Of a stretch of 64,000 nt of DNA, positions 17,461-41,440 are shown one piece after another. The first letter of the stretch is position 1. Each line of letters opens with the position of its first letter. Below the pieces are notes generated by a model. The model saw only the letters and a list, made by a program, of their open reading frames with translations. It was not told the DNA's origin and did not search any database. The translations under genes were made by a program, and so were the position numbers. The stretch is from Fusobacterium mortiferum ATCC 9817 (GTDB taxonomy: Bacteria; Fusobacteriota; Fusobacteriia; Fusobacteriales; Fusobacteriaceae). The DNA is taken from assembly GCF_000158195.2 (NCBI RefSeq), contig NZ_GL987991.1, forward strand, positions 54,455 through 118,454, in the 5' to 3' direction.

Positions 17461-17640
17461 TTATTTTTTTTCAATTATAATTTTATTATCTTCAAATTTA
17501 ACTATTACTTCTCTTTGGTCTGGAGTTACTCCCATTTGAGCTATCCAAGTTTTAGGAAGGCTTATTTTATTTGTATAATTACCTTTTCCATCATTATTGA
17601 ACATTATTTTTAATTCTCTCGTATCCCCTTTTAAATTCAT
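17461..17640 (-). CDS. AbrB/MazE-like small DNA-binding regulator
   Basis: This 59-residue protein starts at the ATG at 17638-17640 behind GGGAGG. The longer open frame upstream covers the promoter of a plus-strand RNA and is not real. The pattern 'YTNKISLPKTWIAQMGVTPDQREVIVKFEDNKIIIEK' is a swapped-hairpin AbrB fold. A paralogue is encoded at 34105-34290 ('FTPRTALPKVWCDKLNITQEEREIIVIFDE'). It probably acts as a dimeric regulator of the late promoter region or of its own neighbourhood. It has its own terminator. Confidence 0.7.
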   Translation of the reverse strand: MNLKGDTRELKIMFNNDGKGNYTNKISLPKTWIAQMGVTPDQREVIVKFEDNKIIIEKK

Positions 17641-17652
17641 AGTTTTCCTCCC

Positions 17653-17681
17653 TTGACTTTTTGTTAAAAAAATCTTATAAT
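17653..17681 (+). promoter_or_regulatory. Strong promoter for antisense RNA
   Basis: TTGACT (17653-17658), 17-base spacer, TATAAT (17676-17681), then TAAAGTACC. The block TATAATTAAAGTACC is identical to the promoter and start region of the small-peptide elements at 22.7 and 41.1 kb. It fires rightwards, against all neighbouring late genes. Confidence 0.7.
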
Positions 17682-17687
17682 TAAAGT

Positions 17688-17752
17688 ACCAAAAAAACAT
17701 TGTGAAAAAAATAAGAGTTTTCTTAAGTAATTTTGAGAGCTCTTATTTTTTT
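17688..17752 (+). ncRNA. Putative antisense RNA, about 65 nt
   Basis: This RNA is defined by the promoter at 17653-17681 and a terminator hairpin (AATAAGAG 17710-17717 with CTCTTATT 17740-17747, then a T tract). It is complementary to the 3' end of the minus-strand gene for a 32-residue membrane peptide, which stops at 17743. The hairpin also works as a terminator on the minus strand, so the two transcripts would overlap tail to tail, as in txpA/ratA-type type I toxin-antitoxin loci. No coding potential is seen. Confidence 0.5.
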
Positions 17753-17841
17753 TTATTCTTAAACCATTTGTAAATTCTATAAGAGAACTCAATAATTTTT
17801 AATATTACAAGTATTGTAACTGCAATTTTAAACCAATCCAT
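17743..17841 (-). CDS. 32-residue cationic membrane peptide
   Basis: This short gene begins MDWFKIAVTILVILKIIEF and ends in a Lys-rich tail. The ATG is at 17839-17841 behind an excellent AAGGAGGTG. It has one hydrophobic helix, aromatic residues at its edge and a cationic tail, the make-up of small type I toxins or holin-like peptides. The antisense RNA on the opposite strand overlaps its 3' end. It is related in layout to the 37-residue peptide just upstream, and both probably share the promoter at 18025-18053. Function is inferred. Confidence 0.6.
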   Translation of the reverse strand: MDWFKIAVTILVILKIIEFSYRIYKWFKNKKK

Positions 17842-17880
17842 TTTTACACCTCCTTAATCTAAGGGGAGGGAGGGGGAATA

Positions 17881-17994
17881 TTACTTCCCTTTAAACCTCC
17901 TAAACTCTTTGATTACCCATCTGATAATTTTTATTGCATAATCAAATGATGTTATTATCAAGATGATTTTCTCCAAGTTCTCCCAAAAAAACAT
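17881..17994 (-). CDS. 37-residue cationic membrane peptide
   Basis: This short gene begins MFFWENLEKIILIITSFDYA and ends 'EFRRFKGK'. It has a hydrophobic helix with a strongly basic C-terminus and resembles the 32-residue peptide downstream. The nearest GGAGG lies closer to an earlier ATG that encodes only a 14-codon peptide in another frame. Translation may therefore be coupled through that leader, or may start here directly with 13-base spacing. It is the first gene of a short operon under the promoter at 18025-18053. Confidence 0.5.
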   Translation of the reverse strand: MFFWENLEKIILIITSFDYAIKIIRWVIKEFRRFKGK

Positions 17995-18024
17995 TGTTGC
18001 ATTTTTTCCTCCCTCCTTGTATAT

Positions 18025-18053
18025 ATTATATTACGGATACCGTTAAAAGTCAA
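18025..18053 (-). promoter_or_regulatory. Promoter with internal operator for small-peptide operon
   Basis: On the minus strand TTGACT (18048-18053), a 17-base spacer and TATAAT (18025-18030). The spacer contains ACGGTATCCGT (18033-18043), an inverted repeat of ACGG/CCGT. A repressor bound there would block RNA polymerase. It drives the two small cationic peptides. Confidence 0.65.
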
Positions 18054-22700: not shown

Positions 22701-22729
22701 TTGATTTTTTTATATTATTTTGTTATAAT
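22701..22729 (+). promoter_or_regulatory. Promoter of small-peptide element 1
   Basis: TTGATT (22701-22706), 17-base spacer, TATAAT (22724-22729), transcript start near 22736. The start region AAAGTACCTA begins a 5' stem-loop closed by GTACCTA/TAGGTAC. Confidence 0.75.
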
Positions 22730-22735
22730 TAAAGT

Positions 22736-23006
22736 ACCTAGAAACCCGTATAGGTACTTGATAAGTTGTTTGTTTAAGTTCAGAATGGAGGCTCTAATAT
22801 TTTTATTAGAGCTTTTATTCTCCCTTGAACATGGCAGACAAATAATTTATCAAGGAGATACAGAAATGACTGTAACAATTCAAAATCTAACTATGAATCT
22901 TGATGGTGGAGTAATTCTTCTAGGTGGATTACTCATTCTCATTATTGTATGGTTAGTGAGAAAGTACAGATAATTCTGACCTCATACCCTACGGGGTCTT
23001 TTTTAT
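22736..23006 (+). ncRNA. Structured mRNA of peptide element 1 (type I toxin-like)
   Basis: The 130-base leader folds strongly. It has a 5' stem-loop (GTACCTA/TAGGTAC) and a 17-bp helix between 22757-22773 and 22838-22854 (three G-U pairs at most) that runs into the AAGGAG site. An inner hairpin GCTCTAAT/ATTAGAGC lies within it. The 3' end is a terminator (ACCTCATACCCTACGGGGTC then T6). The 5' loop ACCCGTATAGG can also pair with CCTACGGGGT in the terminator, a 5'-3' contact like that of hok and aapA mRNAs. Two relatives lie at 31.6-31.9 and 41.1-41.4 kb. Confidence 0.55.
22866..22973 (+). CDS. 35-residue membrane peptide, element 1
   Basis: It begins MTVTIQNLTMNLDGGVILLG, continues with a hydrophobic helix (LLILIIVWLV) and ends RKYR. 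The ATG lies nine bases after AAGGAG, which is sequestered in a long leader helix. The N-x-D-G-G motif before the membrane helix is shared with the peptide at 31642-31746. Its size, single membrane span, basic tail and folded leader resemble type I toxins (TisB, Fst, AapA classes), but it is no family I recognise. The upstream open frame to 22701 is leader, not protein. Confidence 0.65.
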   Translation: MTVTIQNLTMNLDGGVILLGGLLILIIVWLVRKYR

Positions 23007-24263: not shown

Positions 24264-24280
24264 TTTATCACCTATAAAAA

Positions 24281-24297
24281 TTATACAAAAAGTATAA
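24281..24297. promoter_or_regulatory. Repressor operator, copy 2
   Basis: TTATAC-AAAAA-GTATAA, a perfect 6+6 inverted repeat. It lies in the divergent region between the XRE-like gene (minus) and the cytosine methylase (plus). Confidence 0.65.
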
Positions 24298-24421
24298 GAA
24301 AAGTCAAGATAATTTTTACAATTAAATATCAATAACATATAAAAAATTTTAAATTTTACTTTTTTTTTTAAATTTACTTGGTATAATATAAAGATAAATA
24401 GTTTTTTAAAAAGGAGGAAAT

Positions 24422-28835: not shown

Positions 28836-29528
28836 TTATAAATTTCCTTCATAAATAAATTTTACTGCTCTACCCATAATTTTAAAGTTTTCTGCTTTAT
28901 TTTTTGAAACATAAATATCATCATATTTAGGATTTATACTTTTTAAAATAATTATTTTTAAATCAGTATTAAAATATATCCTTTTTATAAAAGTTTCTTC
29001 ATCTAGTTTTACTATATAAATTTTACCTTCTATATAGTCAGTTTGATAGGGATCAACTACTACAAAAGCTCCATCTTGAATTAATGGCTCCATAGAGTTT
29101 CCACAAACTTCTATTAAGTAACAATGCTCATGAAATCCATTTTTTCTAATTGTTTTCATATATAAATCTTCACAACAATTAATATAACCATTTCCTGCAC
29201 TTGCTTTTGCTTTTACTGGAACATTAATAAACTCTTCTTCTATGATAATTGCATTAGACTGAGTATTATTAATTTGAGTTTTTAATTTTTTTAGAGAATC
29301 AGGCATCTTATCTCTTGCTAAAATTTTTAAAACTTCTTCTTTTTCTTCGTTGGAAAAATTAAATTTTTTGAAAAAAGCTTCAATAAATTTATAAGACGGA
29401 CTCCTTTTTCCAGTAGTATAATGACTTATCAAACCAGTGGAATATCCAACTTCTTTTGCAAAATTTTCTATTTTGTATTTATTTTTATCAAGATAATCAC
29501 TTAAGTATTTTCCAAATTCATTAGACAT
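28836..29528 (-). CDS. CI-type repressor (XRE + S24 peptidase)
   Basis: This 230-residue protein starts at the ATG at 29526-29528 behind GGAGG. An N-terminal XRE helix-turn-helix lies in 'ENFAKEVGYSTGLISHYTTGKRSP' (about residues 21-44). The S24 self-cleavage domain has Ser145 in 'CGNSMEPLIQDG', Lys182 in 'ETFIKRIYF' and a likely Ala111-Gly112 cleavage site. This is a lambda CI/LexA-like lysogeny switch cut after DNA damage. Three operator copies lie in its upstream region, one inside the divergent early promoter. The kinase and response regulator follow in the same operon and should be expressed in lysogens. Confidence 0.9.
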   Translation of the reverse strand: MSNEFGKYLSDYLDKNKYKIENFAKEVGYSTGLISHYTTGKRSPSYKFIEAFFKKFNFSNEEKEEVLKILARDKMPDSLKKLKTQINNTQSNAIIIEEEFINVPVKAKASAGNGYINCCEDLYMKTIRKNGFHEHCYLIEVCGNSMEPLIQDGAFVVVDPYQTDYIEGKIYIVKLDEETFIKRIYFNTDLKIIILKSINPKYDDIYVSKNKAENFKIMGRAVKFIYEGNL

Positions 29529-29561
29529 AATTTCCTCCAGAAATTTTATTTCTATAATTAA

Positions 29562-29691
29562 ATTATATCCTACTTTATACAAAAAGTAAAAAATTACTTG
29601 ACTTTTATTTATACAAAATGTATAATTTGATTAGAAATAACCTTATGTTTTATTTTTTTAAATAAAAATTATACAAAAAAGTATAAAAACT
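29562..29691. promoter_or_regulatory. Immunity region: divergent promoters and three operators
   Basis: The early promoter on the plus strand is TTGACT (29598-29603), 17 bases, TATAAT (29621-29626). The operator TTATAC-AAAAT-GTATAA at 29609-29625 covers its spacer and -10, so repressor binding would block it. A second operator with a six-base spacer lies at 29669-29686, and a degenerate one (TTATACAAAAAGTAAAA) at 29575-29591. The latter overlaps the presumed repressor promoter, whose -10 is TATAAT on the minus strand near 29562-29567. Confidence 0.75.
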
Positions 29692-41067: not shown

Positions 41068-41440
41068 TTGACTTTTTGATATTATTTTGTTATAATTAAA
41101 GTACCTAGAAACCCATATGGGTAACTTGCAAAGTTATTTGTTATCAAGTTCAGAATATTAGCCCTAATTTCGATTGGGGCTTTTATTCTGAACTTGAACA
41201 AGGTAGAAACCAATATTTTAATAGGAGGTACAGAAATGACTGTAACAATTCAAACAATAAGTTTGAGGTAGCACAGAAAATAAACTTCTGTGTCTTAATA
41301 ATTATAGTCGTTCTCTGAACTCCTTAATTATTAGAATGGTGGAGTAATTCTTCTAGGTGTATTACTTATTCTCATTATTGTATGGTTAGTGAGAAAGTAC
41401 AGATAATTCTGACCTCATACCCTACAGGGTCTTTTTTTTA
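41068..41440 (+). pseudogene. Broken copy of the peptide element (element 3)
   Basis: The promoter TTGACT (41068-41073), 17 bases, TATAAT (41091-41096), the AAAGTACCTAG start, a perfect inner hairpin (AAGTTCAGAATA/TATTCTGAACTT with AGCCC/GGGGCT inside) and the terminator are kept. The peptide starts MTVTIQ at 41236 as in element 1, but a foreign stretch of about 75 bases (about 41256-41331) replaces codons 7-13 and introduces a stop after 11 codons. The hydrophobic helix and the end of the element (TGGTTAGTGAGAAAGTACAG) are nearly identical to element 1. Confidence 0.7.

Follow-up and report, generated by a model that had tools for sequence, protein, structure and literature searches.

The window, a 64,000-nucleotide stretch of the Fusobacterium mortiferum ATCC 9817 genome, includes a prophage in which a compact locus lies between a sigma-like regulator on one side and terminase genes on the other. 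Two convergent promoters, at 17653-17681 on the plus strand and 18053-18025 on the minus strand, enclose two open reading frames for peptides of 37 and 32 residues (17994-17881 and 17841-17743), each with an upstream Shine-Dalgarno sequence. An initial annotation of the same DNA had described both promoters, an operator-like sequence inside the minus-strand one, both peptide genes, and a terminator closing an RNA of about 65 nt over the 3' end of the 32-residue gene; all of these were recovered, the RNA as a prediction. The features of the locus are listed below, with the basis of each call.

17461-17640, minus strand: 59-residue MazE/AbrB-like protein (phrog_2329), candidate repressor; downstream of the locus, association uncertain
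17653-17681, plus strand: antisense RNA promoter, TTGACT-17-TATAAT (promoter scan, 11 of 12 consensus positions)
17688-17752, plus strand: antisense RNA of about 65 nt, predicted antitoxin (promoter and terminator positions, RNA fold)
17689-17703, plus strand: antisense seed CCAAAAAAACATTGT (exact repeat, duplex energies, shuffles)
17705-17752, both strands: bidirectional terminator hairpin common to both RNAs (inverted repeat, antisense RNA fold)
17705-18020, minus strand: predicted two-peptide mRNA of about 315 nt (promoter and terminator positions, predicted fold)
17743-17841, minus strand: peptide 2, 32 residues, cationic helix, putative second toxin (ORF list, profiles, structure prediction)
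17849-17855, minus strand: SD2, AAGGAGG (sequence)
17860-17878, minus strand: C-rich anti-Shine-Dalgarno element, of which 17865-17873 is predicted to pair with SD1 (mRNA folds, consensus fold)
17881-17994, minus strand: peptide 1, 37 residues, cationic helix, putative toxin (ORF list, profiles, structure prediction)
17958-18002, minus strand: short out-of-frame ORF MQQCFFGRTWRKSS across the peptide-1 start (ORF list)
17983-17997, minus strand: target site for the 5' end of the antisense RNA, spanning the peptide-1 start codon (exact repeat, duplex energies)
18008-18016, minus strand: SD1, GGAGGGAGG (sequence, mRNA fold)
18025-18053, minus strand: two-peptide mRNA promoter, TTGACT-17-TATAAT (promoter scan, 11 of 12 consensus positions)
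18033-18043, unstranded: imperfect palindrome ACGGTATCCGT, candidate operator, inside the minus-strand promoter spacer

The window has six promoter pairs of TTGACT-17-TATAAT quality, where chance would give 0.32. The terminator arms (17705-17722 and 17735-17752) are 18 nt long and 89% complementary, and the hairpin is A-rich on one flank and T-rich on the other and therefore bidirectional. The predicted antisense RNA covers about 10 nt of the 32-residue reading frame. The palindrome ACGGTATCCGT occurs once in the window (0.01 expected) and once in the whole genome; we had considered it as the site of a genome-wide regulon and dropped that reading because of its single copy.

Each peptide is predicted to form a single helix, with mean pLDDT of 92.9 for peptide 1 and 91.3 for peptide 2, and net charges of +4 and +6, respectively. 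Hydropathy is moderate (highest 19-residue mean about 1.7), so that an amphipathic helix lying on the membrane surface is as likely as a transmembrane one; both peptides probably act on the membrane. In alignments of homologs described below, R33 and G36, close to the C-terminus, are conserved in peptide 1, where a Trp is common and not invariant, while peptide 2 keeps K15, E18, Y21, and an invariant W26 that precedes a Lys-rich tail. A peptide-1 profile matches peptide 2 weakly (E 0.002), and the two may be related to each other. Neither peptide matched Pfam or NCBIfam at the cut-offs, neither had a significant PHROG match, PADLOC reported nothing at the locus, no Rfam model matched at gathering thresholds, and a search of plasmids with peptide 2 returned none.

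The ATG of peptide 1 lies about 13 nt from SD1, which is far, and an out-of-frame ATG is better spaced. A reading frame of this kind overlaps the peptide-1 start, with better Shine-Dalgarno spacing, both in the window and in the phiHugo type (L131, 3982-4074); in phage phiHugo it is the annotated ORF in place of peptide 1. A U7 slippery run in the window is placed where a -1 slip would fuse this upstream ORF to peptide 1; the run is not common to the other sequence classes, and we set the frameshift aside.

The window has exactly three copies of the promoter block TATAATTAAAGTACC (17676, 22724, and 41091; 0.00 expected). That the antisense promoter has this block in common with two other elements was noted earlier, and the identity is exact; the antisense role does not carry over, and the block is a promoter/initiation sequence. 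At 22724-22975 it drives a peptide mRNA (MTVTIQNLTMNLDGGVILLGGLLILIIVWLVRKYR) whose leader is very stable (-53 kcal/mol over 170 nt), folds its 5' part onto the Shine-Dalgarno region by base pairing, and contains a terminator-like hairpin. A second copy of this element, at 41091-41405, has its ORF broken by an insert of about 70 nt and is probably decayed. The element recurs elsewhere in the same genome (L040, C5:225.9k) and on contig 15 of genome G011 (L039), which has it in three tandem copies with the leader pairing kept and the sequence changed; it looks like another undescribed small-peptide family. Two further prophage promoters (29598-29626 and 24280-24307) carry TTATAC-N5-GTATAA palindromes unlike ACGGTATCCGT; one adjoins a cI-like repressor gene (28836-29582), and the palindromes are probably operators of that repressor.

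The antisense seed and relatives of the locus

Three features had been overlooked in the otherwise accurate initial list: the out-of-frame ORF, the anti-Shine-Dalgarno element, and a 15-nt direct repeat. The segment 17689-17703, with which the antisense RNA is predicted to open, repeats 17983-17997 letter for letter; even with up to one mismatch tolerated, CCAAAAAAACATTGT has just these two copies in 64 kb, with 0.01 expected. Because the two RNAs run in opposite directions, a direct repeat makes the antisense 5' end an exact complement of the peptide-1 start region, through which the RNA could switch the message off.

Related loci were sought by several routes. A search with peptide 2 found a second locus in the same genome, on another contig; a search with the promoter block across 98 genomes of the phylum found full loci in G035 and G036; and peptide profiles found two-peptide loci in G037, G038, G065, G073, G077, and G080. 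The last four belong to another family, on chromosomes termed Leptotrichia-like by inference from gene content and kinship, and show the same layout with looser pairing. DNA comparison found no similarity to the locus in phages. By tblastn it was found in Fusobacterium phage phiHugo (OR492275.1), whose annotation lists the ORFs as hypothetical, and a pattern scan added four IMG/VR contigs; these contigs, phiHugo, G037, and G038 make up one further class. Only decayed remnants remain in G071, G076, G078, and G079. The sigma-like neighbour used as a query gave no relatives, and a ParB-like neighbour gave 18 loci, none with the layout. Scanning IMG/VR and 84,980 genomes with the promoter pattern returned 18 stretches, none of them with the seed/target geometry and so probably chance; weak peptide matches in G001 and G008 also looked like chance, lacked the layout, and were dropped.

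Full copies occur on chromosomes away from phage genes as well: four genomes have one next to leuS, and the window's own genome has one with unrelated neighbours. A decay series beside leuS within one family (L068 in G080; L069 and L126 in G079; L127-L129) has lost the anti-Shine-Dalgarno element, and then peptide 1 and the antisense RNA.

Across these relatives, the antisense 5' end and its target change together. At the four closest loci, from three genomes, the duplex begins exactly 7 nt past the -10 box, lies 281-297 nt from its target, and extends over 15-18 bp with at most one G-U pair; the paired sequences are all different (CCAAAAAAACATTGT, CCTATTAAATTGAACATA, CCTAGAAAGTTAATCA, and CCAAGTAATTCAAACAT). 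Three of the four (L031, L041, and L032) have exactly one G-U pair each; the antisense RNA always contributes its U and the mRNA its G, and in two cases it falls at position 11. The Leptotrichia-type duplex consists of 6 bp, an internal loop, and then 9 bp. All of the antisense RNAs are built alike, with ACC, a tail of about 15 nt, and the terminator hairpin.

Six sequence classes were distinguished, G037 and G038 counting as one target class. Cognate duplexes between RNA 5' end and start region reach -19.5 kcal/mol in the window and -23.4, -23.9, -24.0, -20.5, -22.2, and -16.8 kcal/mol elsewhere, against -14.8 kcal/mol for the best duplex between different classes. When the RNA 5' end was shuffled 5000 times, the cognate value was never equalled in any of the six classes (z from -6.8 to -10.4). 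The two loci of the window's own genome cross-pair poorly (-2.5 and -6.4). Pairing of the antisense RNA with the mRNA, as judged from sequence, is thus supported by co-variation. Recurrence across the group in both phages and chromosomes, with sequences that are rewritten and still match, suggests that these loci form an undescribed family of toxin systems under RNA control.

A predicted Shine-Dalgarno lock in the mRNA

In the predicted fold of the window mRNA, the C-rich element just after the peptide-1 stop codon pairs with SD1, whose mean pairing probability is 0.82. Values for six other loci are 0.94, 0.90, 0.95, 0.97, 0.74, and 0.78, so that seven of nine folds fall between 0.74 and 0.97. 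The exceptions are the chromosomal copy of the window's own genome (0.48, an uncertain case) and G080 (0.18), in which the element has an 11-nt deletion. A consensus fold of the nine sequences contains the SD1/C-rich helix together with a nested helix from the C-terminal codons of peptide 1. Several pairs of the consensus helix vary and are nevertheless kept, while some sequences break some pairs, and we therefore regard the fold as supporting evidence rather than decisive. Pairings of a purine-rich Shine-Dalgarno sequence with a C-rich stretch also arise easily. The models predict that SD1 is hidden by the C-rich element past peptide 1.

Probable mode of action and rival readings

A toxin-antitoxin-like locus of type I, as first proposed, is strongly supported by the layout, its conservation, and the co-varying complementarity found in the sequence comparisons. 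The peptides have a size, a predicted helix, and a charge that would suit putative type I toxins. We consider it probable that the locus is a prophage-borne, two-peptide, type I toxin-antitoxin-like module that works much as par (Fst/RNAII) does; its transcription, repression, toxicity, and role in maintenance are what we infer from that arrangement. The minus-strand promoter would give an mRNA of about 315 nt for the two cationic helical peptides, and the plus-strand promoter an RNA of about 65 nt that converges on the same bidirectional terminator. Through its 15 leading nucleotides this RNA would pair across the start codon of peptide 1 and keep ribosomes from binding, and the terminator hairpins, which are complementary, would give the two RNAs a second contact. 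Until the antitoxin binds, the predicted long-range helix between SD1 and the C-rich element would limit leaky translation. If antitoxin synthesis ceased, as on loss of the prophage, translation would be released.

The overlap at the 3' end, which had been likened to txpA/ratA and bsrG/SR4, does exist: the terminator is common to both RNAs, and about 10 nt of the peptide-2 ORF are covered. That this overlap alone acts, through mRNA decay as in txpA/ratA, with the 5' match incidental, is nonetheless very improbable, since the 5' match recurs at every intact locus with a different sequence and at the same offset, and beats all shuffles. The likeness to those systems holds for the overlap and is incomplete as an account of the mode, the conserved, co-varying contact being that of the antisense 5' end with the start codon of the 37-residue peptide. 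We give as little credence to holin-like lysis factors, suggested earlier as an alternative, or to antimicrobial peptides directed against other cells. Size, charge, and helix generally fit leaderless bacteriocins or small holins, but the peptides have no significant family match (the best lysis-family match, holin phrog_920, has E 0.28), the neighbours are terminase or tail genes rather than a lysis cassette, no export or immunity genes adjoin, and chromosomal copies exist.

Less remote, and still improbable, is a pair of phage genes under antisense control that does not form a toxin-antitoxin system, with peptides that would serve the phage in superinfection exclusion, modification of the host membrane, or timing of late genes, and an RNA that would silence them in the lysogen. 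The copies in the window and in G035 lie just before terminase genes, that of phiHugo lies within its tail genes, and the toxin promoters carry palindromes in their spacers, all as this would have it; the full chromosomal copies outside phage genes, and an antisense geometry that agrees with par, favour the toxin-antitoxin-like module instead.

The palindromes bear on an elaboration of that module as well. G035 has the same gene order as the window, with the two-peptide locus followed by a MazE/AbrB-like gene and the small and large terminase subunits, while in phiHugo, G037, and G038 the next gene encodes, by inspection, a protein of ribbon-helix-helix type. The spacer palindromes of the toxin promoters are specific to their loci (ACGGtatCCGT, ACATTGTA-N4-TACAATGT, and TGTAGCTACA), with arms of 4 nt in the window, unimpressive by themselves, 8 in G035, and 5 in phiHugo and G038. 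The downstream protein might bind the palindrome. Control would then have three layers, namely the antisense RNA, the self-inhibiting fold of the mRNA, and a DNA-binding repressor from the adjacent downstream gene acting on the locus-specific palindrome. This repressor would be exchangeable, of MazE/AbrB-like type in the window and G035 and of ribbon-helix-helix type in G037, G038, and phiHugo. We hold this speculative and rather unlikely. If true, the locus would combine antitoxin control by RNA with antitoxin control by protein, and its two peptides might act as a pair.

Comparison with known type I systems

The closest parallel is par of pAD1, in which convergent RNAs end at a common terminator, direct repeats block the toxin start, and the Shine-Dalgarno sequence is locked by intramolecular pairing (PMC7472228, PMC4147584). 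The present locus resembles it in its convergent promoters and common bidirectional terminator, in direct repeats that pair a short antisense RNA with the toxin start region, and in intramolecular sequestration of the Shine-Dalgarno sequence, predicted here and lost in G080. It differs in being found in Fusobacteriota, in encoding two peptides rather than one, in having one contiguous seed of 15-18 nt at the RNA 5' end, and in hiding the Shine-Dalgarno sequence with a downstream C-rich element, whereas par uses a local 5' stem-loop. Most Fst members have a P/D/S/TXXXG(C) motif in the transmembrane segment (PMC7472228); on inspection against that description the motif is absent from both window peptides, and peptide 2 has no glycine. 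Another Fst trait is a Trp between the hydrophobic segment and the charged C-terminus; here W26 of peptide 2 stands before the Lys-rich tail, and the Trp of peptide 1 varies between loci. Since the Pfam and NCBIfam searches were also negative, the locus is not a member of the Fst family by sequence.

For two peptides under one antisense RNA in a prophage there is a precedent in yonT/yoyJ/SR6 of the Bacillus subtilis prophage SPbeta, where the RNA meets the 3' end of one peptide toxin gene and the ribosome-binding site of the other (PMC5848175). The arrangement is different: in SPbeta the RNA is placed between the two genes and reaches the second with its 5' end, whereas the RNA of the present locus follows both genes and reaches the first. 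With txpA/ratA and bsrG/SR4 the locus has in common a small membrane-type peptide and a convergent antisense RNA over the 3' end; the conserved contact here, in contrast, involves the 5' end and covers the start codon. In hok/sok and AapA/IsoA, long-range folding of the toxin mRNA conceals the Shine-Dalgarno sequence and keeps the message silent, and the antisense gene faces the 5' portion of the toxin gene. The predicted fold of the present mRNA is of this long-range kind, but its antisense RNA is encoded at the other end.

A 2025 paper that adds a cyanobacterial case states that type I systems had until then been known from three phyla alone, Proteobacteria, Firmicutes, and Tenericutes (PMC12390103), and text searches of open-licence papers found no report of one from Fusobacteria. 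A par-like family with six co-varying seed classes and with phage and chromosomal members across the order would widen the range of type I systems, and its two-peptide loci would supply test cases in bacteria for which RNA tools are scarce. As seed and target change in step, the family also offers natural material for studying how antisense pairs diverge and how they are insulated from each other within one cell.
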